Assembly: GCF_002890915.1 (NCBI RefSeq)
Contig: NZ_POUT01000010.1
Location: 1 to 64,000 of the forward strand
DNA: 64,000 nucleotides
Direction of reading: 5' to 3'
Origin: Stutzerimonas stutzeri
GTDB lineage: Bacteria > Pseudomonadota > Gammaproteobacteria > Pseudomonadales > Pseudomonadaceae
Positions 5,504 to 31,603 of this stretch are shown piece after piece. The stretch's first letter is position 1, and each line of letters starts with the position of its first letter. The notes under the pieces are model-generated. The model saw only the letters and a list, made by a program, of their open reading frames with translations, searched no databases and had not been told where the DNA came from. The position numbers were made by a program, and so were the translations under genes.

Positions 5504-6432
5504 ACCTGTGTTTCCCAAGTGGAGTGCCGGGCCTCGGCCAGTAATGCGCCAAGGGCGCAACTGGCGACTCGTGCGCGCATGCTGTCGGAACGGCTGGTGA
5601 AGATGATGGGCACCCGGGCGCCGAGTACCAGCCCGGCGGACTCCGCTCCAGCCAGATAAATCAGTTGCTTGGCCAGGATGTTGCCTGCTTCCAGGTCGGG
5701 AACCAGGAGGATGTCCGGATCGCCCGAGACATCCGAGGCGATGCCCTTGATCCGCGCGGCCTCCGCGCTGATGGCATTGTCGAAGGCCAGCGGTCCGTCG
5801 AGCAGTGCGCCCTCGATCTGCCCGCGCAGCGACATCACCACCAGCGCCGCGGCTTCCAGGGTCGAGGGCAGCCTGGCGTTGATGGTCTCCACGGCCGATA
5901 GCAGGGCGACCTTGGGCCGTGCGATGCCGAGGACATGCAGCAGGTCGATGGCGTTGCGGCAGATATCGGCCTTGTCGTCCAGGCCGGGAAAGATGTTCAC
6001 CGCAGCATCGGTGACGAACAATGGCTTGTGGTAGCTGGGCACACTCATGGCGAACACGTGGCTCAGGCGCCGCTCGGTACGCAGGCCGCCCTCCCTGGCA
6101 AGCACCTCATGGAGCAGTTCGTCGCTGTGCAGGCTGCCCTTCATCAGCAGCGTGGCGCGACCTTCGCGCACCAGCGCGACACTCCGTGCAGCTGCGGCGT
6201 GGCTATGCGGCACGTCCTCCAGCGGCAGGTCGCCGAGTTCCAGGCCGGCGGCCGTGGCGACGGCTTCGATCTTCTCCCGCGGGCCGACCAGGATCGGCGC
6301 TATAAGCCCCAACCGGGCGGATTCCAGGGCGCCCTGCAGAGCGCCTGCCTCGCAAGGGTGGACCACGGCGGTGGGCTGTGGGGGCAGTCCAGCGCAATGC
6401 TGCAGCAATCCTGCAAAATGATCCTGGCTCAT
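5500..6432 (-). CDS. pta: Phosphate acetyl/butyryltransferase, single-domain
   Basis: Protein of 310 aa in the PTA/PTB family. It exchanges CoA for phosphate on a short acyl group, giving an acyl-phosphate for AckA. Family stretches include LLMKGSLHSDELLH (about residues 95-108), VTDAAVNIFPGLDDKADICRN (140s-150s) and GDPDILLVPDLEAGNIL (about 236-252). The protein is just the catalytic domain. It lacks the N-terminal MaoC-like hydratase domain fused to homologues in some betaproteobacteria, and the long regulatory N-terminus of the housekeeping Pta. Both ends overlap neighbours by 4 nt, indicating translational coupling with the upstream PHA-synthase-like gene and with ackA. Confidence 0.85.
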   Translation of the reverse strand: MSQDHFAGLLQHCAGLPPQPTAVVHPCEAGALQGALESARLGLIAPILVGPREKIEAVATAAGLELGDLPLEDVPHSHAAAARSVALVREGRATLLMKGSLHSDELLHEVLAREGGLRTERRLSHVFAMSVPSYHKPLFVTDAAVNIFPGLDDKADICRNAIDLLHVLGIARPKVALLSAVETINARLPSTLEAAALVVMSLRGQIEGALLDGPLAFDNAISAEAARIKGIASDVSGDPDILLVPDLEAGNILAKQLIYLAGAESAGLVLGARVPIIFTSRSDSMRARVASCALGALLAEARHSTWETQV

Positions 6433-12077: not shown

Positions 12078-12710
12078 TCAACCGAGCGCCTTGGCATACA
12101 GCTCGTGGGCCTTGATCAGCGCTTCGGCGATTTTCTCCACCGGTTCCCGCTTGGCCATGGCCTGGTCGCGCAGGGCGTTGTAGGCATCGGTCTCGGACAA
12201 TCCCTTGGTCTCGATCAGGATGCTCTTGGCCTTCTGCACGGTTCGAGTCACGGCGAGGCGTCCTTCGAGGCGCTTGACGTGCTTTTCCCGGTCGCGAGCC
12301 TTGCGCGATTGATTGAGCGTCACCGAGAGGGCCGCCAGCAGGCCGAAGGACTTCACTGGCGAAGGGATCACGGCGAAAGCGTTCAACTGCAGCAGGGCCT
12401 CGACGATGATCGGGCTTTCGTAGGCGATCACCGGAATGACCGGTGGCGTGCCGGGCCGTCCCAGCCATGGTGCATTGGATGCAAGGGTTTCCGGCGCCAC
12501 CGAGAGGACGATCACGTCGGATTCCAGCGTCAATCGTTCGGGAATCGGCCACTGGGCCCGCACCTGGCAGCCGATACGCTGCAACTGGGCGATCAGCGCC
12601 CGGCCGTCTTCGTCGTCCGGGTGGATCACCAGCACGCTGGTTTCGCGTAGCTCCTTGATCCCGGAACTGCCGTCGCCGCGCTGGCGTTTCTTGGCGGCAC
12701 GCAGGGTCAT
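12078..12710 (-). CDS. amiR: ANTAR-domain transcription antiterminator, AmiR/NasT family
   Basis: Protein of 210 aa. Residues about 22-145 are a degenerate receiver (VLVIHPDDEDGRALIAQL; the phosphoacceptor region is not canonical). A coiled-coil linker follows (REKHVKRLEGRLAVTRTVQ), then the ANTAR RNA-binding domain (KAKSILIETKGLSETDAYNALRDQAMAKR, about 160-190). ANTAR proteins bind paired hexaloop RNA hairpins and prevent intrinsic termination. The start codon overlaps the amiC stop as ATGA, so the pair is co-translated as in the amidase operon of P. aeruginosa. No amidase is nearby. The likely target is the attenuator upstream of urtA at 14343-14424. Confidence 0.88.
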   Translation of the reverse strand: MTLRAAKKRQRGDGSSGIKELRETSVLVIHPDDEDGRALIAQLQRIGCQVRAQWPIPERLTLESDVIVLSVAPETLASNAPWLGRPGTPPVIPVIAYESPIIVEALLQLNAFAVIPSPVKSFGLLAALSVTLNQSRKARDREKHVKRLEGRLAVTRTVQKAKSILIETKGLSETDAYNALRDQAMAKREPVEKIAEALIKAHELYAKALG

Positions 12711-13852
12711 AGGTCGCTCCCCATCGAATTCGACCAGTCGTCCAGGCTTGGTGCGATGACGTACGGGTCCGGTTTCAGGTGATGGCGGCTCTCGAACAGC
12801 AGGTCGAACTGGCCCATGCGATTGACACGGCCGATGCGCGAGAACAGGAAGCTGTGATGGTTGTGCATGTCGATCCTGACCAGCCCTTGCGGCGCCTCGA
12901 ACTCCAGCCCGCGCAGGGCCTGGAGTATGTCCCCGACACGCTCGCGCCCGGCGCGGCGCAGCGCCTCCGCGAACAGATGGACCTGGAAGTAGGCGGCGTC
13001 CCAGCACATGTCCGTCACCTGGTTGGCGCCGAAGCGGGCCTGGTACGCGGCGACGCAATGGCGATTGGCCGGAGTGTCGACAGACTGGAAATAGGTCGCT
13101 GCGGTGATGTGCCCGGCGGCCAGCGCGGCGCCCATCTGCTGGATTTCCGTCTCGCTGGTCACCAGGCTGGCGATGGGCATTTCCTGAGGGTCCAGGCCAG
13201 CTTCCGCATAGGCCTGGTAAAGGTGACGCATGCTATCGCCGACCACCATCGAGAAGATGAACGAGGGCCGCAGTTGGCGGGCTTTCTCGATCACCTTGTC
13301 GAACTCGCTGCGGCCGGCGTTCAGCGGCAGGTAGTACTCGCCAAGCTTGGTGCCGCCACGCTCGTAGAGCAGGTCGCTCATCAGCCGGTTGGCTTCGTAG
13401 GGATAGACGTAGTCCGAGCCGACCATGAGCACGCGGGTGCCGTAGTGGCGGAACATGTACTCGGCGAGCGGCACGTTGTTGTGGTTCTGCGTGGCGCCGG
13501 TGTAGATGACGTTGCGCGAATATTCGAAGCCCTCGTAGAACACCGGGTAGAAGAGCAGGGCGTCGTGACGTTCCAGCACCGGCAGGGCGGCCTTGCGGGT
13601 GCTCGAGGTGTAGCAGCCGAAGAAGAACTGCAGGCCTTCGTCACGGATCAGCGACTCCAGGTGCCGGGCATACAGGTGTGGGGTCGAGTCCGGGTTGCGC
13701 AGCACCAGTTCCAGCGGGCGACCGTCGATACCACCGGCTTCGTTGATCTGCTCGATGGCGAACAGGGTGGCGCGGGTCATCGAGCGCTCGATGGCCGAGG
13801 TGACGCCGGTATCGGAAAACAGGCCGCCTATGCGGATCGGTTGGTCGGGCAT
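12707..13852 (-). CDS. amiC: AmiC-like negative regulator/ligand sensor (periplasmic-binding-protein fold, cytoplasmic)
   Basis: Protein of 381 aa, same length class as AmiC. It starts directly with PDQPIRIGGLFSDTGVTS and has no signal peptide, so it should be cytoplasmic. The two-lobed binding-protein fold resembles UrtA, encoded divergently: FFFGCYTSSTRKAALPVLERHDALLFYPVFYEG here and a similar block in UrtA. AmiC binds short amides and otherwise sequesters AmiR. Given the neighbouring urea genes, urea or a short amide is a reasonable ligand here (inference). The start at 13852 has AAGG upstream. A sigma-54 promoter candidate lies at 14079-14095. Confidence 0.85.
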   Translation of the reverse strand: MPDQPIRIGGLFSDTGVTSAIERSMTRATLFAIEQINEAGGIDGRPLELVLRNPDSTPHLYARHLESLIRDEGLQFFFGCYTSSTRKAALPVLERHDALLFYPVFYEGFEYSRNVIYTGATQNHNNVPLAEYMFRHYGTRVLMVGSDYVYPYEANRLMSDLLYERGGTKLGEYYLPLNAGRSEFDKVIEKARQLRPSFIFSMVVGDSMRHLYQAYAEAGLDPQEMPIASLVTSETEIQQMGAALAAGHITAATYFQSVDTPANRHCVAAYQARFGANQVTDMCWDAAYFQVHLFAEALRRAGRERVGDILQALRGLEFEAPQGLVRIDMHNHHSFLFSRIGRVNRMGQFDLLFESRHHLKPDPYVIAPSLDDWSNSMGSDL

Positions 13853-14078
13853 TGGTAAACCTTGTGTGAGGATTGGACCGGCGCGCAGGGCCGGTGGCTG
13901 TCCATGCGGAGGGCGCAGGTTCAGCGCGGCATGGTGACGCAGACTCTTATGGCCTGACTGGGCAGCCTGTGCCCGCTCTGGCAGGACCGCGCTGTCCCGA
14001 CCAGACGAGCGCGGCGAGTTCCAGGCCTGCCGGGGAGAGGCGCCTGGCAAATCGCCGCGCGAAAGATCGTCGGGACAA

Positions 14079-14263: not shown

Positions 14264-14342
14264 TGTGTCTCGTCTCGAAAGACAATGCGGGCCATTTGCC
14301 ATACGCCTTTTCGCGGCAGGTATGGAAACGTCTCGCCCATGA

Positions 14343-14376
14343 CTGGCTTGGACAATGTCGTCCCGCCAGATTCGGC
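14343..14376 (+). promoter_or_regulatory. ANTAR-type RNA hairpin in the urtA leader
   Basis: A stem GGAC/GTCC closes the hexaloop AATGTC (14354-14359), supported by an outer CTGGC/GCCAG stem (14343-14347 with 14365-14369). ANTAR targets carry A at loop position 1 and G at position 4, as here. A second, weaker hairpin (GGC, loop ACAAGAA, GCC at 14374-14386) overlaps the 5' arm of the following terminator, the expected place for the second ANTAR hairpin, but its loop is 7 nt with G at position 5. Confidence 0.55.
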
Positions 14377-14382
14377 ACAAGA

Positions 14383-14424
14383 AGCCTGACTCCCGGTCAC
14401 CAGACCGGAGGTCGGGCTTTTTTT
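14383..14424 (+). terminator. Leader intrinsic terminator (attenuator) upstream of urtA
   Basis: AGCCTGACTCCCGGTC pairs with GACCGGAGGTCGGGCT (two G-U pairs, one mismatch) around the loop ACCA, followed by seven T residues (14418-14424). It ends only 30 nt before the urtA ATG, inside the predicted leader, so it must be read through for the urea operon to be expressed. Confidence 0.85.
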
Positions 14425-14454
14425 ATTTCTGGCTTTTGTTCCTGGAGAAATGCG

Positions 14455-24316: not shown

Positions 24317-24787
24317 CTAGTCCACCGGGCGGAAGTGCCGGTGGCTGGCCGAAAGGCCTCGCACGTGGCGGTGCTCGGCACCGTCCTCGGTCAGCGACAC
24401 CAGGTTGAGATGGCCGTGGCGGACTCCGCTTTCCGCCATGATGCGCTCGGCCAGCTGGCGCACCAGCCGGGTCGGTCCGCGCAGGATCGAGCAGGCCAGG
24501 CAGTGCTCATGGTCAAGATACGACTGCAGGGTCGACACGCTCAGGTCGTGGTGGGCGTGATGATGGCGGGCGAGGCGTTCGGCGAGCTCGCGTTCCTGGT
24601 GGTTGTAGACGTAGCTGAGGCTGGCGACGCAATGCGCGCTGGCGTCGCGGCGTTGCCGCGAGCGTTCCAGTTCGGCGCGCAGCAGGTCGCGCATGGCTTC
24701 CGAGCGGTTGCGGTAGCCGCGCTCCGCGATCAGCGCGTCGAAGGCTTCGGCCAGTTCGGCCTCCAGCGAGATGGTGATGCGTTCCAT
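24317..24787 (-). CDS. nikR: NikR-family nickel-responsive regulator with altered metal site
   Basis: Protein of 156 aa. The ribbon-helix-helix DNA-binding domain (ERITISLEAELAEAFDALIAERG, then NRSEAMRDLLR) is intact at residues 2-37, followed by the ACT-like metal-binding domain. Against the E. coli nickel ligands His76, His87, His89 and Cys95, this protein has His77, Gln88, Tyr90 and Cys96, so two of the four are replaced. Extra potential ligands lie alongside (DHEHCLAC, with His93, His95 and Cys99), and the C-terminal tail is His-rich (EHRHV, SHRHF). AGAGG precedes the start. It is the last gene of the nickel uptake operon and may sense nickel differently from classical NikR. Confidence 0.85.
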   Translation of the reverse strand: MERITISLEAELAEAFDALIAERGYRNRSEAMRDLLRAELERSRQRRDASAHCVASLSYVYNHQERELAERLARHHHAHHDLSVSTLQSYLDHEHCLACSILRGPTRLVRQLAERIMAESGVRHGHLNLVSLTEDGAEHRHVRGLSASHRHFRPVD

Positions 24788-24802
24788 CGGGCATCCTCTT
24801 GT

Positions 24803-25429
24803 TCACAACGACAGGGTACGGGTGCCGAGCCGGTGGACCAGCTCCTGGTCATGGCTGGCGACCAGCATCGGCAGTCCGGTTTCCAACAGGCAGGCCAGCA
24901 GGCGCGCGCAGGCGTTCTCGTCGAGTCCGCTGCTGGGTTCGTCGAGCAGCAGCATGCGGGGTTTCATGGCCAGCACCCCAGCCAACGCCACCAGGCGCTG
25001 TTCTCCACCGGAAAGCTGCTGTACCGGGCGTTCGGCCAGCCGTTCGAGGCCAAGCGCGGTGAGCGTTTCCAGCGCCAGCGCATGCGCCGCTCGGTGCTCC
25101 AGGCCCTGGTTGAGGGGGCCGAAGGCGACGTCCTCGAGCGCCGTCGGGCCGAACAGCTGGTCCGCCGGGTCCTGGAACAGCAGACCCAGCGGGCCGCGCA
25201 GGGGGATGAAGTCGGCCTCGCTGCGCCGCTCGCGTCCGAACACCTGCAGGCTGCCTTCGTGCACCGGCACGAAACCGAGCAAAGCGTGCAGCAGGCTGGT
25301 CTTGCCGCGACCGCTGGCGCCGAGCAGGCAGAGGCGTTCGCCGGCCTCCAGGCTGAAGTCTGGCGGGCTCAGCAGGCGGTCCGCGGAACGCGCCAGACGC
25401 AGCCCGCGGGTTTCGATCAGCGTGAGCAT
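24803..25429 (-). CDS. nikO: Nickel ECF-type transporter ATPase (NikO/CbiO family)
   Basis: ATPase of 208 aa. Walker A is GASGRGKTS (about residues 37-45), the Q-loop is LLFQDPADQLFGPTALEDVAFGP (about 83-105), the signature LSGGEQRLVALAGVLA (about 138-153), Walker B MLLLDEPSSGLD and the switch His VASHD. Compared with typical CbiO it is short at the C-terminus. It energises uptake through the NikMQ membrane part. The start at 25429 lies inside the 3' end of nikQ. A nickel rather than cobalt substrate is inferred from NikR and the adjacent urease. Confidence 0.88.
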   Translation of the reverse strand: MLTLIETRGLRLARSADRLLSPPDFSLEAGERLCLLGASGRGKTSLLHALLGFVPVHEGSLQVFGRERRSEADFIPLRGPLGLLFQDPADQLFGPTALEDVAFGPLNQGLEHRAAHALALETLTALGLERLAERPVQQLSGGEQRLVALAGVLAMKPRMLLLDEPSSGLDENACARLLACLLETGLPMLVASHDQELVHRLGTRTLSL

Positions 25430-26079
25430 GGGCGTTCTTCCAAGGATGTGGCGGGTCGTTTGGCGCGACCGGTCAGGCGCTGGATGCCGAAACCCCGTGC
25501 GCGCAGCGCCAGGTCGACTCGTTCTGCACGCAGCAGGGCATGGACCAGGATGAGCGCGACCTGCAGCGCCAGCACTTCGCAGGTACGCCGGTCGCAGCGC
25601 GGCCGGAAGCCCCGCGCCTGCATGGCCCGCTGCAGGCGCGCGCGGGTGTCGTGCATCAGCGTCAGGTAGCGCACGGTCAGGGCCAGCAAGCGTGCGAGGC
25701 GTGGCGGCAGGCCCAGGCGCGCCGCCGCCGCGGCCACGGCGAAACCGTCCAGGCCAGCGAGCAGTGCAATGCACAGCAGGCCGGCGGCGTTGCCGCGCAG
25801 GCTGATGTGCACGGCGGCTTCGACGCCTTCGGTACTCAGCCGCAACCCTTCGGCGTCGAGCTGCCAGGGCAGGCTGAGCCAGACGCAGCCGACGAACAGG
25901 TTGAGCGTCGCCCAGCGGCGCAGCAGCACCCCGGTCGGCGCCTGGCGCAGCAGCAGGGCGAGCAGCAACGCCACGCCGCCCAGCGCACAGGCGGCAAGCA
26001 GTTCGGCGGTGTCCGTCAACAAGGCGATGCCCAGGCTGCCGAGCAGGGCCGACAGCAGGCGCCAGGCTGCGCCGTTCAT
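25417..26079 (-). CDS. nikQ: ECF transporter transmembrane protein (NikQ/CbiQ family)
   Basis: Inner-membrane protein of 220 aa with several hydrophobic segments (RLLSALLGSLGIALL; AACALGGVALLLALLL; LCIALLAGLDGFAVAAAA). The CbiQ coupling region is seen as LQRAMQARGFRP (about residue 150) and ALRARGF (about 195), the short Ala-Arg-Gly motifs that contact the ATPase. It overlaps nikM by 4 nt and nikO by 13 nt. It is the T-component of the nickel transporter. Confidence 0.85.
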   Translation of the reverse strand: MNGAAWRLLSALLGSLGIALLTDTAELLAACALGGVALLLALLLRQAPTGVLLRRWATLNLFVGCVWLSLPWQLDAEGLRLSTEGVEAAVHISLRGNAAGLLCIALLAGLDGFAVAAAAARLGLPPRLARLLALTVRYLTLMHDTRARLQRAMQARGFRPRCDRRTCEVLALQVALILVHALLRAERVDLALRARGFGIQRLTGRAKRPATSLEERPCSR

Positions 26080-26690
26080 GGCCGTCTTTCCTGCAACAGT
26101 GCCGGCGACATGCGCCAGAGCAACCCCAGAACGAGCGCGCCGATCAGCGAATCGACGACGATCACCGGCAGGTGGGCGACCAGCAGCAGGCCGATCAACT
26201 GGTCGAACAGCCGTCCACCGCTCAGCGCCAGCAGCAGGCTGGCGATCGCCGCGGCGCCGCCGACGCCGATCAGACCGCAACCGATGCCGATGCCGAACAG
26301 CCGGCGCGGGCCTGGCGTACCGCGCAACAGCGGCCCCAGCAGCAGATGACAGAGTATCGCCGGCAGCGCCATGCACAGCAGGTTGGCGCCGAGCACCAGG
26401 AAACCGCCGAACGAGAACAGCGCGGCCTGCAGCAGCAGGGCGACGAAGAACAACGGGAAAACGCCCCAGCCGAGCAGCAGACCGGCCAGGCCGTTGAGCA
26501 CCAGGTGTACGCTGCCCACGCCCACCGGTACGTGCACGGTGCTGGCGACGAAGAAGGCGGCGCCGAGCAGCGCGGCGAGCGGCATGCGCGCATCGTCCAG
26601 ACGCCGCAGGCCGAACAGCAGCCCACCGGCCGACAGCACCGTGCAGCCGACCAGCAGCGGGGTGGCGAGCACGCCCTCGGCGATATGCAT
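26076..26690 (-). CDS. nikM: ECF transporter substrate-binding membrane protein (NikM/CbiM family)
   Basis: Protein of 204 aa beginning MHIAEGVL. The conserved N-terminal Met-His of this family coordinates Ni2+ or Co2+, which fixes the start at 26690 rather than an ATG 99 nt upstream. About six hydrophobic segments follow, with HVPVGVGSVHLVLNGLAGLLLG (about residues 66-87) carrying the conserved His residues. It is the S-component that captures the metal. Its ATG overlaps the last base of the nikL stop (TGATG). Confidence 0.9.
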   Translation of the reverse strand: MHIAEGVLATPLLVGCTVLSAGGLLFGLRRLDDARMPLAALLGAAFFVASTVHVPVGVGSVHLVLNGLAGLLLGWGVFPLFFVALLLQAALFSFGGFLVLGANLLCMALPAILCHLLLGPLLRGTPGPRRLFGIGIGCGLIGVGGAAAIASLLLALSGGRLFDQLIGLLLVAHLPVIVVDSLIGALVLGLLWRMSPALLQERRP

Positions 26691-27178
26691 CAGCGCCTCC
26701 CCTCGGCGCTGCCGCGCCGGCTTCGCCACAAGGCCCAGAGTCCGAAAATACCGAGCAGGTAGCCAAGCCCGCCCAGCACGTCGCGCCACCAGAGCCGCTG
26801 CTCCAGGCGGCCGATATCCTCGCGCAGCAGGAGCAGCGTCTCGTGGTTCGCGCCGGCCGCCGGTACGTCGCTGGCCAACGCCGTGGCGCGATGGCCTTCC
26901 TCGCCCTCGGCGACCACGCGTATCCGGGAAACCGCTGGCACCTGCAGCTCGAAGCGTCCGGCGGTATCGGTCTTGCCCTCGGCGAGACTGCCGGATCGGC
27001 CGTCGGCGTCCAGGGCCTCGACAAAAATGCCGGCGGCGGGCGTGCGGTCGCTGTACAGCGCGATGCCGGTGAGCCGCTCGCCGCTCCGCTGGGCCAGCAC
27101 GTCCAGGCCGTGGGCGTGCAGGAAGGGAGAGCCGGCCAGCAACAACAGACCGGCGAGGAGGCGGCAGCGATCATTCAT
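26690..27178 (-). CDS. nikL: Nickel transport auxiliary membrane protein, NikL-like
   Basis: Protein of 162 aa. It has a signal peptide (MNDRCRLLAGLLLLAGSPFLHAHG), a periplasmic immunoglobulin-like/carboxypeptidase-regulatory domain (GIALYSDRTPAAGIFVEALDADGRSGSLAEGKTDTAGRFEL) and a C-terminal membrane anchor (LGGLGYLLGIFGLWALW). This layout matches NikL, which accompanies NikMQO in nickel ECF systems. An ATG 6 nt upstream (27184) is an equally possible start. It overlaps the preceding DUF4198 gene by 8 nt. Confidence 0.7.
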   Translation of the reverse strand: MNDRCRLLAGLLLLAGSPFLHAHGLDVLAQRSGERLTGIALYSDRTPAAGIFVEALDADGRSGSLAEGKTDTAGRFELQVPAVSRIRVVAEGEEGHRATALASDVPAAGANHETLLLLREDIGRLEQRLWWRDVLGGLGYLLGIFGLWALWRSRRGSAEGRR

Positions 27179-27887
27179 CGGCATGGAACACCAGGCTGTA
27201 TTCGGTACTGAGTTCGGTGAGGCGCGGATCATCGCTCACCGCCAGTCGCTGCCCGGCCCAGATACGGTTGCTGCCCGGGCGAACCACCAGGCTGGCGCGG
27301 CCATTGGCATCGCTGCGGGCCAGCTCGCCTTCCTCGTCGAAGGCCAGGGCGATGCCGGCGGCCGGACGGCCGTCGATCAGCACCTGCAGTTCGAGCGGCT
27401 GCCCGGCCCTGGGCTTGCGGTCCGCCAGCGGCACCAGCTCGAAGGCCTGGCCCAGGGGCCGGCTGGCCTGTGCGTTCCAGTGCAGGATGCTCTTGTGGTG
27501 CTTCACGGCCCGCACGCCGCTGACCGCGCCGGGCACTTGGTCCATCGGCCGGTTCTCGCTGCGGCCGCTGTCCAGCCTGCTCCAGTAGCCGTTGTCGAAG
27601 AACAGCGTCATCAGCGCCGCATCGCCCTCGGGGACGAGGCGTACGCCATCGGCGCGGTCGTGGCGCACGACGCCGAGTTCGGCGCCCTGGCGATCGTAGG
27701 CATGGACCTGCTGGAGTTTTTCCGCTGGATAGTCTTCCAGCACGCCGGCGTGGCCGCCGAAGCGCACGACATGGCCGGGGCCCTGCGGATTGGCTTCCAG
27801 CCAGACGCTGTGGGCCAGGGCGGCACGGCTGCCGAGCAGCGCCAGCAGCGTGGCGAAAGCCAGGATGAGCGGTGTGGGGCGGAACAT
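27171..27887 (-). CDS. nikK: Periplasmic DUF4198 protein, NikK-like nickel-handling component
   Basis: Protein of 238 aa with a clear signal peptide (MFRPTPLILAFATLLALLGSRAALA), so the mature protein would begin at HSVWLEAN with a His at its N-terminus, typical of DUF4198 proteins linked to NikMLQO. Beta-rich domains follow (RFGGHAGVLEDYPAEKLQQ; PLELQVLIDGRPAAGIALAFDEEGE). It probably receives nickel from the outer-membrane receptor or donates it to NikM. It follows the receptor gene by 15 nt and overlaps nikL. Confidence 0.7.
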   Translation of the reverse strand: MFRPTPLILAFATLLALLGSRAALAHSVWLEANPQGPGHVVRFGGHAGVLEDYPAEKLQQVHAYDRQGAELGVVRHDRADGVRLVPEGDAALMTLFFDNGYWSRLDSGRSENRPMDQVPGAVSGVRAVKHHKSILHWNAQASRPLGQAFELVPLADRKPRAGQPLELQVLIDGRPAAGIALAFDEEGELARSDANGRASLVVRPGSNRIWAGQRLAVSDDPRLTELSTEYSLVFHADE

Positions 27888-27902: not shown

Positions 27903-29942
27903 TCAGAAACTGGCCTGGACGCCCAGGCTCACGCGGCGCGGCGCACCGCTGGCATAGCCGATGGTGGACACCGCGGCGGCATAGACCTCGTCGGTCAGGT
28001 TTTCCACGGCCAGGTAGGTGCGCACGCCGGGGGCGAAGGCGAGGGTGTGGGCGATGCTGAGATCGGCCACGTGATAGCTGCCGGTGATCTGCCGGTTGGC
28101 CGCGTCGAGAGCGTAGTCGCCGATCTGCCGCCAGGTCAGGCTGCCTTCCCAGTCGGCGACCGGGCGCCAGTTGGCGGTGAGCGTGGTGGTATGGCTGGGC
28201 ACGCCGGTCACGCGATTGCCTTCCAGGGCCGGGTCGGCGTTGCGACGAATTTCCGACTGCGCGGTGGCCCAGGCCAGCGACAGGTCGAAGGAATCGCTGA
28301 GATACCAGTGCCCGGCGGCTTCGAAGCCGGTACGCCGGGTTTCGCCGAAGTTCTCGTATTCGCCGGCCGGATTTTCGCCGATCTCGTCGGTGGAATCGAT
28401 GCGGTAGAGCGCCAGGTCCAGGCTCAGGTCGCCCCAGACGAGGTTGGCACCCACTTCGGTCTGGCGGAACACGTTGGGGTCGACGCGCGCGGTGCCGAGG
28501 GAATACTTGGCGGTCTCCTCGGCCAGGGCGAAACCTTCCGCCCAGCTGGCGCGCAGTTCGAGCCAGTCGGCGGGCCGCGAGCGCAGGCTGAACTTGGGGC
28601 TGGCATGGCTGACCGGCGCCAGTCGCGCGCATTCGCCACCGACGGTTTCCGCGCCCTGGATGGCGCAATCGCCGGTGAAACGGTCCCAGCGCCAGCCCAG
28701 CGTCGGCGTGAACAGCGGGTCGATCTGCCATTCGAGCTCGCCGAAGGCGGCCAGGTTGTTGAGCGTGAAGCGCCGGTCCAGGTTGGGCGTAGCGTTGCGC
28801 TGGCGATAGTGGATGCCGTCGTGCTTCAGGTAATCGGTGCGCTCGCGATAGCTTTCCACTCCGGCGACCCAGTTCAGTGGGCGTTCGGCCAGGCTGCCCT
28901 GACCGTTGAGGTTGAAGCCGCCGCCGAGCACGGCGCGGTCGTAGGTCTCCTCGCGCTGGCTCCAGGTGCCGGCGACCGGGCGGGTGAACCAGCGGCTGAA
29001 GTCCTGGCGGGTGGTGTAGAGGAACGAGAGCAGCTTGAGGTCGTCGGCGAGGCGGTAGTTGGCATCCAGACGCAGGCTCCGGTAGTCCTTTTCCGAGCCG
29101 TCGTTCTGCACGCCGGCGTATTTGCCATAGGGATCGCGCTTGTATTCGGCGTAGGGCAGGTAGGACGGATTGTCGGCCTCGGCCTGGTGCACGCGGGTCG
29201 ACAGGGCGACTTCCAGCGCCGGGCTGAAATCGATCGCCCAACGCCCGGCGAAGGTCTGCCGCTCGCTCTGCGACTGGTTGCGGAAGCCGTCGTCGTGCAC
29301 CGCCTGGGCGGCCAGGTTGATCCGCTGGTTGCCGTTGTATTCGAAGCCGGCGGCGGCCTGCAGGTCGACCTTGCCGTATTCGCCGGCGGAGAGGTCCAGC
29401 TCACGGTAGTCACCGCCGCGCCGTGTCTGCAGGGTGACGCTGCCGGCGCGGTTGTAGTTACCGTAGAGCGCCGAGACGGGGCCGCGCAGGACCTTGATGC
29501 GCTCCAGTTCCAGCGGAACGATCAGGTTCAGGTCCGCATAGCCGTCGGCGTGGGACATCGCTTCGTTGAGCGGGATGCCATCGACGATGAAGCCGATGTC
29601 GCCGCCGTGCCCGCCATTGCCGAAGCCGCGCAGCGAGATGTTGTCGGCCACGCCCGGGAGGCCGAGGTCGCGCACGTTCATCCCCGGCACCTTGCGCAGC
29701 AGGTCCTGTACCTGGTCGACGTGCTCCTGGCGGATCTCGTTGGCCTCGATCAGGGTGGTGGAATAAGCCTTGTCGGTGGCCTGTTGCATGGCCGAGCCCT
29801 TGACGGTCAGGGAATCGAGCAGCAGCGGTGCAGGTGTACCGACGGCGAAGGCCGCGCATGGGAAAAATACCAGGCCGGCTAGCTGGACGAATGGCGGACA
29901 CGCGCGCGAATGCGTCTTCAGGATAGGAAATGGGGTAGGCAT
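27903..29942 (-). CDS. TonB-dependent outer-membrane receptor, probable nickel (chelate) transporter
   Basis: Protein of 679 aa. It has an N-terminal signal (cut near FAVGTPA), a TonB-box-like start (LLLDSLTVKG), a plug domain (LLRKVPGMNVRDLGLPGVADNISLRGFG; GDIGFIVDGIPLNEAMSHADGYADLN; ERIKVLRGPVSALYGNYNRAGSV) and a 22-strand-type barrel ending in VQASF. It is the first gene of the operon with NikK, L, M, Q, O and R homologues, so nickel or a nickel complex is the inferred cargo. CTGGAG precedes the start by 6 nt. Upstream lie a 10-codon leader ORF within overlapping hairpins and a NikR-like inverted repeat. Confidence 0.85.
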   Translation of the reverse strand: MPTPFPILKTHSRACPPFVQLAGLVFFPCAAFAVGTPAPLLLDSLTVKGSAMQQATDKAYSTTLIEANEIRQEHVDQVQDLLRKVPGMNVRDLGLPGVADNISLRGFGNGGHGGDIGFIVDGIPLNEAMSHADGYADLNLIVPLELERIKVLRGPVSALYGNYNRAGSVTLQTRRGGDYRELDLSAGEYGKVDLQAAAGFEYNGNQRINLAAQAVHDDGFRNQSQSERQTFAGRWAIDFSPALEVALSTRVHQAEADNPSYLPYAEYKRDPYGKYAGVQNDGSEKDYRSLRLDANYRLADDLKLLSFLYTTRQDFSRWFTRPVAGTWSQREETYDRAVLGGGFNLNGQGSLAERPLNWVAGVESYRERTDYLKHDGIHYRQRNATPNLDRRFTLNNLAAFGELEWQIDPLFTPTLGWRWDRFTGDCAIQGAETVGGECARLAPVSHASPKFSLRSRPADWLELRASWAEGFALAEETAKYSLGTARVDPNVFRQTEVGANLVWGDLSLDLALYRIDSTDEIGENPAGEYENFGETRRTGFEAAGHWYLSDSFDLSLAWATAQSEIRRNADPALEGNRVTGVPSHTTTLTANWRPVADWEGSLTWRQIGDYALDAANRQITGSYHVADLSIAHTLAFAPGVRTYLAVENLTDEVYAAAVSTIGYASGAPRRVSLGVQASF

Positions 29943-29970
29943 GGGAAGCTCCAGGCGATTGATGGATCGT

Positions 29971-29997
29971 CGGGCCTGCTGTGCCCGCTACGGCGGG
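29971..29997 (-). promoter_or_regulatory. Mutually exclusive leader hairpins at the end of the upstream ORF
   Basis: On the minus-strand RNA, CCCGC-CGTA-GCGGG (29984-29997) forms a tight hairpin spanning the stop codon of the leader ORF. The same GCGGGC segment can instead pair downstream as CGGGC, loop ACAGCAG, GCCCG (29971-29987). The two stems share bases and cannot coexist, as expected for a ribosome-controlled switch 30-45 nt before the receptor ATG. Confidence 0.55.
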
Positions 29998-30020
29998 ACT
30001 TCGTTGTCACCGCCGCTCAT
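29988..30020 (-). CDS. Leader peptide MSGGDNEVPP upstream of the nickel receptor gene
   Basis: A complete 10-codon ORF (MSGGDNEVPP, stop TAG) ends 45 nt before the receptor start. The last two sense codons are both Pro, directly before the stop, a configuration known to slow peptide bond formation and termination. The stop codon lies in the loop of a perfect 5-bp stem. Upstream GGAC is only a weak ribosome binding site. No other small ORF in this leader is framed by RNA structure in this way. Translation is inferred. Confidence 0.5.
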   Translation of the reverse strand: MSGGDNEVPP

Positions 30021-30098
30021 CGTCCAGAGTGCTTCAGGCATGCCGGGATGACTGGCGCCTGACAACGCAATAGAACAGTCCCTAGGCCGAAGCGTCGG

Positions 30099-30127
30099 GT
30101 GTGAAGAAAATAGCAATCTTCATACCA
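30099..30127. promoter_or_regulatory. NikR-like operator candidate upstream of the nickel operon
   Basis: GGTGTGAAGA and TCTTCATACC form an inverted repeat (9 of 10 pairs) around 9 nt. It contains the half-sites GTGTGA and TCATAC, close to the E. coli NikR operator GTATGA-N16-TCATAC but with a 15-nt spacer. It lies about 160 bp upstream of the receptor gene, in an operon that encodes NikR. Confidence 0.5.
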
Positions 30128-30361: not shown

Positions 30362-30632
30362 CTAGGGTCTGTTCCCGCTTCATTCGCGGCCGCGCCGGAG
30401 CCTGTTTTACCGCGAGGCAAGGCACGAGATGCGAAGTTTAGTCGTCTAAATGAGCCATCGAGTAACGCCGCATCGCGGTAAAACAGGCCCGGCCCTTCGG
30501 GTTGCGCGGGAAATAGTCCCCGCTGTCGTTGCAGGACTTGGCAAGGGAATGACCATTACCTGCGTCCTGCGCCTAACCGGGGGCTATTTCTCGCAGCAAC
30601 GCGGCTCGCGATGAAACGGGAACAGACCCTAG
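30362..30632. mobile_element. 271-bp MITE with IS5-type ends and CTAG target duplication
   Basis: The ends are imperfect inverted repeats of about 33 bp (CTAGGGTCTGTTCCCG on the left, CGGGAACAGACCCTAG on the right). CTAG at both borders is consistent with target duplication by an IS5-family transposase. A second internal inverted repeat, GCCTGTTTTACCGCG (30400-30414) and CGCGGTAAAACAGGC (30474-30488), gives a large secondary structure. No transposase is encoded. The right border coincides with the TAG stop of the TAXI-protein gene. Confidence 0.75.
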
Positions 30633-31603
30633 AGCCAGCCTTTTTCCTTGTAGTAGCGCTCGGCGCCTTCGTGCAGCGGTGCGGTCAGGCCGACGCGGAT
30701 CATGTCCTCGGCCTGCAGCTCGGCGAAGGCCGGGTGCAGGCGCTTGAAGCGCTCGAGGTTGTCGAATACCGACTTGACCAGCTGGTACACCACCTCCGGG
30801 TCGGTTTTCGCGGTGGTGGCCAGCACCGCCTTGCCGCCGATGGAGGGCACCGGCGCGTCCACGCCCGGGTAGAGCCCGGCGGGGATCTCGGCGGCGGTGT
30901 AGTAGTCGGCACCCTTGAGGAACGCGTCGATCTGCGGGCCGCTGACCGGGATCAGCGTGGCTTGCACGTTGGTCAGCGCCTCCTGGATGGCGCCGCTGGG
31001 GTGGCCGACCACATAGGTGATGGCGTCGAGGTTGTTGTCGCCCAGCGCGGAGGCCATCTCCGCCGGCTTCAGTTCGCCGGCCAGGGCGAAGTCGGCATTG
31101 GTCCAGCCCTTGGCCTTCATGACTTCGTCGAAGGTATCGCGGCTGCCGGAGCCGGGCACGCCGATGTTCACCCGCTTGCCCTTGAGGTCGTCGAAGGTTG
31201 CGATGCCGCTGTCGTGCCGGGCGACGACGGTGAGAATCTCGGTCTGCAGCGAGAACACCGCGCGCAGCTCTCCGATCGGCCCGCCCTTGTCGAACGGGGC
31301 CAGCCCGTTCAGCGCCTTGTGCTGGTGGTCGGACTGGATGAAGCCGAATTCGAACTCGCCGTTCTGCAGCGAGACGATATTGGTCACGCTGCCGGCGGTG
31401 GAGGGCGCGTTGCACTTGATCGCCGGCTGCGTCTCGGCGCGATTGAGGAAGCGGCACACCGACTGCCCGGCGGTGTAGTAGACGCCGGTCTGGCCGCCGG
31501 TGCCGATGGTCACGAAGCGCTCCTGGGCCATGCCGGTGGTGGCGCCCAGGGCGCCGGCGAGGAGGGTGCAGCCAAGCAGGCCGACACGTGTTTTCTTGTT
31601 CAT
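30629..31603 (-). CDS. TAXI-family TRAP transporter solute-binding protein
   Basis: Periplasmic protein of 324 aa. It has a signal peptide (MNKKTRVGLLGCTLLAGALGATTGMA) and a TAXI-type binding domain: FVTIGTGGQTGVYYTAGQSVCRFLN at the mature N-terminus, then GEFEFGFIQSDHQHKALNG and VNIGVPGSGSRDTF. TAXI proteins work with a large fused DctQM membrane protein, but no such gene is present here. It lies upstream of ridA and dadA on the same strand, so an amino-acid-like ligand is plausible. AAGAGG precedes the start. The stop codon TAG belongs to the CTAG target of the MITE. Confidence 0.88.
   Translation of the reverse strand: MNKKTRVGLLGCTLLAGALGATTGMAQERFVTIGTGGQTGVYYTAGQSVCRFLNRAETQPAIKCNAPSTAGSVTNIVSLQNGEFEFGFIQSDHQHKALNGLAPFDKGGPIGELRAVFSLQTEILTVVARHDSGIATFDDLKGKRVNIGVPGSGSRDTFDEVMKAKGWTNADFALAGELKPAEMASALGDNNLDAITYVVGHPSGAIQEALTNVQATLIPVSGPQIDAFLKGADYYTAAEIPAGLYPGVDAPVPSIGGKAVLATTAKTDPEVVYQLVKSVFDNLERFKRLHPAFAELQAEDMIRVGLTAPLHEGAERYYKEKGWL

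Follow-up and report, generated by a model that had tools for sequence, protein, structure and literature searches.

A divergent livK-type RNA ahead of a nickel-uptake operon in Stutzerimonas stutzeri, a probable target of an AmiR-like ANTAR protein

AmiR is an ANTAR antiterminator. The targets of AmiR, NasR, and EutV are defined by A1/G4 hexaloops in two successive hairpins (Ramesh et al. 2012, PMC3369931), and a single hexaloop is the minimal ANTAR binding unit (PMC8934654). A terminator is not strictly required, as predicted ANTAR targets without terminators have been published (PMC3369931). The livK RNA (RF01744), which precedes amide and urea genes, was described as a candidate cis-regulatory RNA whose ligand is not known (Weinberg et al. 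2010, PMC2864571). A third relevant system is the Halopseudomonas-type operon for a nickel TonB receptor and ECF transporter, which is controlled by NikR and has a short leader without an RNA element.

The stretch of S. stutzeri DNA analyzed here (64,000 nucleotides, hereafter the window) contains an operon with the same gene order and operator as the Halopseudomonas-type operon. Its leader, in contrast, carries an RNA element. The receptor gene (ATG at 29942, minus strand) and the genes for a DUF4198 protein, NikL, CbiM, CbiQ, CbiO, and NikR form one same-strand run. A preliminary description had called the receptor a nickel receptor, and that assignment is sound because the receptor heads a run with NikL, CbiM, CbiQ, CbiO, and NikR; its basis is thus the neighboring genes and NikR, not the receptor itself. 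A gene for a TAXI-type TRAP transporter solute-binding protein (30629–31603) precedes the nickel operon in the same orientation. In our reading, which we hold to be probably correct, the nickel leader is a divergent livK-type RNA and a target of the AmiR-like ANTAR protein, with NikR acting at the same promoter (Table 1).

Table 1. Features of the nickel leader, its operon, and the livK/AmiR loci (window coordinates)
Feature	Position	Strand	Evidence
NikR-type operator GTATGAAGATTGCTATTTTCTTCACAC, half-sites spaced by 15	30099..30125	-	conserved in eight receptor orthologs
livK-type RNA element, whole	29960..30073	-	RF01744 30.9 bits; R1 52.1 bits
P1 hairpin UCAGGC-GCC-loop-GGC-AU-GCCUGA	30034..30062	-	compensatory changes relative to other copies
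P2 hairpin CGGCGG-U-GAC-AACGAA-GUC-CCGCCG	29991..30015	-	fold and alignment
P3 hairpin CGGGC-ACAGCAG-GCCCG	29971..29987	-	counterpart of GGC-ACAR-GCC in other copies
Alternative hairpin CCCGC-CGUA-GCGGG (stem of the preliminary description)	29984..29997	-	excludes P2 and P3
Chance ORF MSGGDNEVPP-stop	29988..30020	-	coincides with P2
Shine-Dalgarno GGAG of receptor gene	29949..29952	-	sequence
TonB-dependent receptor, first gene of nickel operon	27903..29942	-	PF00593 and PF07715
Remaining operon: DUF4198 protein, NikL, CbiM, CbiQ, CbiO, NikR	24317..27887	-	Halopseudomonas-type orthologs with same order
AmiR-like ANTAR protein, proposed regulator	12078..12710	-	PF21332 and PF03861; PDB 1qo0_D AmiR E 5.6e-25
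AmiC-like ligand sensor, no signal peptide	12707..13852	-	PF13433; PDB 1pea AmiC E 1.4e-105
livK RNA before amiC-amiR	13948..14058	-	RF01744 60.1 bits (14057-13975); R1 86.3 bits, in R1 training set
livK RNA before urea/amide ABC transporter and urease genes	14288..14399	+	RF01744 77.6 bits (14288-14372)

The RF01744 match to the nickel leader spans 30073–29987 and has a genome-wide E of 0.018, and its score is under the gathering cut-off of 65 bits. Up to an E of 5, no sub-threshold match was found in the genome beyond the nickel leader and the two better copies. A covariance model built from 17 livK copies with the nickel leader left out (R1) recognized the leader clearly (E 4.5e-12 in the window and 3.3e-10 genome-wide, both rough as the calibration was shortened), with the next match in the window at 10 bits. 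Both of the accepted livK copies that this genome carries were used to train R1, and this may raise the score of the nickel leader; the RF01744 match is free of that bias. Sequence and predicted structure identify the leader of the nickel operon as a diverged Rfam livK RNA, and the genome has no clear copy beyond these three. It resembles the published livK RNA in the sequence and structure of P1 and P2 and in its gene neighborhood, and differs in preceding nickel-uptake genes and in scoring below the gathering cut-off (PMC2864571). Across 391 genomes of the order, R1 gave clear matches solely in this genome. Inspection of weaker matches of 19–24 bits to a model R2 in other genomes gave no clear new target, three of them being one repeated, apparently protein-coding stretch, and plasmid records gave nothing useful.

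The helices were examined in an alignment of 27 rows with ~30 nt of downstream sequence; besides the nickel leader and the two accepted copies, it included 24 from elsewhere in the Pseudomonadaceae. Changes on both sides of a pair were observed in 41 cells versus 10.5 in shuffles, counts that are not independent events as the copies come from related genomes, and sliding the helix partners abolished the signal. P1 was paired in 100% of cells over all 27 rows, with both-side changes at four pairs; its arms are UCAGGC/GCCUGA in the nickel copy versus CCAUAC/GUAUGG in most copies. In the nickel leader both P1 and P2 are kept through compensatory change and the invariant livK positions are retained. 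The P2 hexaloop AACGAA (30005–30000), with A1 and G4 present, is identical to the loop of two amidase-class leaders, and GAC-AACGAA-GUC has the form of the first hairpin of an ANTAR target. Among the 27 copies A1 is found in 26 and G4 in all, and only two copies depart from a six-base loop.

A second hairpin, GGC-ACA[AG]-N2/3-GCC, lies directly after P2 and outside the Rfam model in 17/17 transporter- and amiC-class copies. Loop position 4 is A or G in these other copies; the P3 loop of the nickel copy has A1 and G4, but is 7 nt long and lies 17 nt from the P2 loop. Amidase-class copies have CGG-A.CGA.-CCG instead, or a slightly broken form of it; the loop has six bases, with A1 and G4 present. 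Two adjacent A1/G4 hexaloops (GGAC-AACGAA-GUCC-U-CCGG-AACGAA-CCG) were observed in amidase-class copies L047–L050, L054, L057, and L060–L062, in which the Rfam model ends ahead of the second hexaloop. An alternative second hairpin nearer P2 (GCC-A.....-GGC in other copies) was rejected, as most of its loops are without G4.

The preliminary description had proposed that the nickel-uptake operon is preceded by a structured regulatory leader whose hairpins exclude one another, and this is supported. The hairpins are beyond chance, in that the leader fits the livK covariance model, and both the CCCGC-CGTA-GCGGG stem at 29997–29984 and the alternative pairing of part of it with bases downstream are present: CGGGC (29987–29983) can pair with GCCCG (29975–29971), and either hairpin has -7.8 kcal/mol. 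When folding began at the likely transcription start, the best fold lacked the competing hairpin. Folding with enforced states gave competing structures over the Shine-Dalgarno sequence and no clear switch, the sequence being largely paired in both states, and a U-tract terminator that could overlap the hairpins is absent from the nickel copy. In the best free fold, CGUUGUCA upstream of P1 (~30067–30060) pairs perfectly with UGACAACG of P2 (30009–30002, minus strand). The former is a possible anti-P2 arm in the nickel leader, and is not obvious in other copies.

The window pair of AmiR- and AmiC-like proteins has as best solved matches the P. aeruginosa proteins AmiR (1qo0) and AmiC (1pea), and urea-binding proteins are also among the structure matches of the sensor. 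The amiC-amiR pair lies right behind one livK copy, with the AmiR gene ~17 kb from the nickel leader. Two further ANTAR proteins are encoded in the genome. Among 398 genomes of the family, livK RNA was found in 11 and a strong AmiR (90 bits or more) in 19, and 11/11 livK genomes were within those 19 (hypergeometric p 9e-17, ignoring the relatedness of the genomes). An AmiR gene was near a livK copy in each of the 11. In a genome with a classical amidase operon, the amiE leader reads CAUC-AGCGUC-GAUG-UCG-CCGG-ACCGAA-CC, with two A1/G4 loops, much like amidase-class livK. The second stem has just two clean pairs, so these loops were identified by eye; a simple scan of amidase loci for neighboring A1/G4 hexaloops gave no convincing pair. 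Like the known targets of AmiR, NasR, and EutV (Ramesh et al. 2012, PMC3369931; PMC8934654), the nickel leader has an A1/G4 hexaloop hairpin followed by a second hairpin, and as with AmiR-type targets AmiR and AmiC are encoded nearby. It differs in its 7-nt second loop, its loop spacing (11 nt in the amiE leader), its extra P1 domain, and the lack of an intrinsic terminator.

The operator GTATGAAGATTGCTATTTTCTTCACAC matches the NikR pattern GTATGA-N-TCATAC with one mismatch, in the right half, and was the sole match of its kind upstream of any gene in the window. The spacing between half-sites is 16 in the E. coli NikR operator; the N15 spacing seen here is kept in the receptor orthologs. Overlap of the operator with an extended -10-like TGCTATTTT predicts a promoter at this site, and transcription of the nickel operon would start near 30100. 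Eight close orthologs of the receptor, some possibly one species present in two collections, have GTRTGAACTTTGCTRATTTGTTCATAC at the corresponding place and a leader of ~70 nt without livK RNA, and in the three whose flanking sequence is long enough the operon is the same as far as NikR. A ninth, more distant ortholog had neither an operator-pattern match nor livK RNA. Five of the orthologs came from the family sample, and 0/5 of their genomes were among those with a strong AmiR. Because the orthologs keep the operator without the RNA, a lineage with the nickel operon beside the urea cluster probably acquired the livK RNA, between operator and gene.

The preliminary description had attributed control of the operon to a leader peptide, MSGGDNEVPP, whose Pro-Pro-stop would stall ribosomes and so choose the hairpin. 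The ORF on which this was based (ATG AGC GGC GGT GAC AAC GAA GTC CCG CCG TAG, 30020–29988, minus strand) does exist 45 nt before the receptor ATG, as do its stop codon and the competing hairpins, and a short ORF and competing hairpins are what the leader has in common with Pro-Pro-stop leader peptides. The stop codon (TAG, 29990–29988) had been placed in the hairpin loop, which holds for its T and A; the G is in the stem. In contrast to such leader peptides, however, the reading frame is not conserved. The start column has ATG in seven of the 26 homologous RNAs and ACG, GCG, GTG, or TCG in the other 19, indels shift the frame in three (L046, L058, and L059), and stop positions vary, so that many copies have either a shifted frame or no stop. 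Pro-Pro-stop is unique to the nickel leader, and both peptide and livK element were absent upstream of all nine receptor orthologs examined. The ORF is also without a well-placed Shine-Dalgarno sequence, and is at chance level: when the 159-nt leader was shuffled with its dinucleotides preserved, an ATG ORF of 5–40 codons turned up in 53% of the shuffles. It is an accident of reading one frame of the P2 hairpin as codons; the Asp-Asn-x-Val likeness among copies arises because the RNA GAC-AACGxx-GUC is conserved. A peptide attenuator is thus very improbable, and this case is a caution that GC-rich hairpins can yield Pro-Pro-stop mini-ORFs.

That livK RNA is a riboswitch for a small molecule, or binds another factor, with AmiR a mere neighbor, would agree with its published description as a candidate regulatory RNA without a known ligand (PMC2864571) and with the strong conservation of P1, which ANTAR binding leaves unexplained. 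The strict co-occurrence of livK with AmiR, the A1/G4 hexaloops, and the same pattern in the amiE leader all speak against this, and we give it little credence. It is slightly less doubtful, though still unlikely, that the nickel copy is a degenerate former AmiR target that has lost its function and is now a passive 5' leader under NikR alone. Its score below those of the other two copies, its lack of a terminator, and the failure to find an orthologous leader with the element would fit such decay. Against it, P1 and P2 pairing is kept by compensatory changes, A1/G4 is kept in both loops along with the invariant livK positions, and the divergence from the amiC copy is no more than that between the two accepted copies (61% identity each). 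Counted against the AmiR reading itself were the element being known before nickel genes in one genome alone, the nine orthologs without it, the missing U-tract terminator and clean on/off fold, the 7-nt P3 loop with its wider spacing, and the two other ANTAR proteins.

The likely trans-acting factors are AmiR on the RNA and NikR on the DNA, not a stalled ribosome. We infer that AmiR binds the nickel leader and that it acts there in the activating direction. AmiC would keep AmiR inactive until bound to its ligand, which, based on the gene neighborhood, would be urea or a short amide. Freed AmiR would bind P2 at its A1/G4 loop, probably bind P3 as well, and hold both hairpins. Neither the rival CCCGC/GCGGG hairpin nor the structure that covers the ribosome-binding site would then form, and the operon would be expressed. 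The output may be translation, or Rho-dependent or intrinsic termination; because the nickel copy has no U-tract and no clear folding switch, translational or Rho-dependent control is put forward as a suggestion. When nickel is plentiful NikR would repress the same promoter, so that uptake would need both low nickel and a urease substrate. As urease needs nickel, the cell probably activates nickel uptake along with urea use.

Taken singly, livK RNA, antitermination by AmiR, and repression by NikR were known before. In a literature search, with most subscription papers outside it, we found no report linking livK RNA to ANTAR proteins, ANTAR control to nickel uptake, or ANTAR with urease. We lean slightly toward the broader view that the livK family is the target of urea/amide-sensing AmiR-type ANTAR proteins, and that the regulon is extended here to nickel uptake via a terminator-less leader under NikR. 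If true, an RNA family listed since 2010 without a regulator gains one, and an ANTAR regulon joins a substrate (urea, amides) to the metal of its enzyme (nickel for urease) through a two-input gate of low nickel and urease substrate present.

The other livK copies precede amiC-amiR, amidase, urea/amide transporter, and, in one genome, ureE genes; in the window the urease genes lie at 19–24 kb. The transporter copy is followed by an intrinsic terminator (AAGCCTGAC...GTCGGGCTTTTTTT) ending at ~14426 (window 14288–14430), whose 5' arm overlaps the second hairpin (P3), which is the classical ANTAR layout. Because P3 overlaps the 5' arm of this strong terminator, ANTAR antitermination is proposed for this copy, in which AmiR would block termination by holding P2 and P3. 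In another species of the genus (G027), a livK RNA with a terminator was observed directly before ureE of the urease operon (L120, ~5898–5976).
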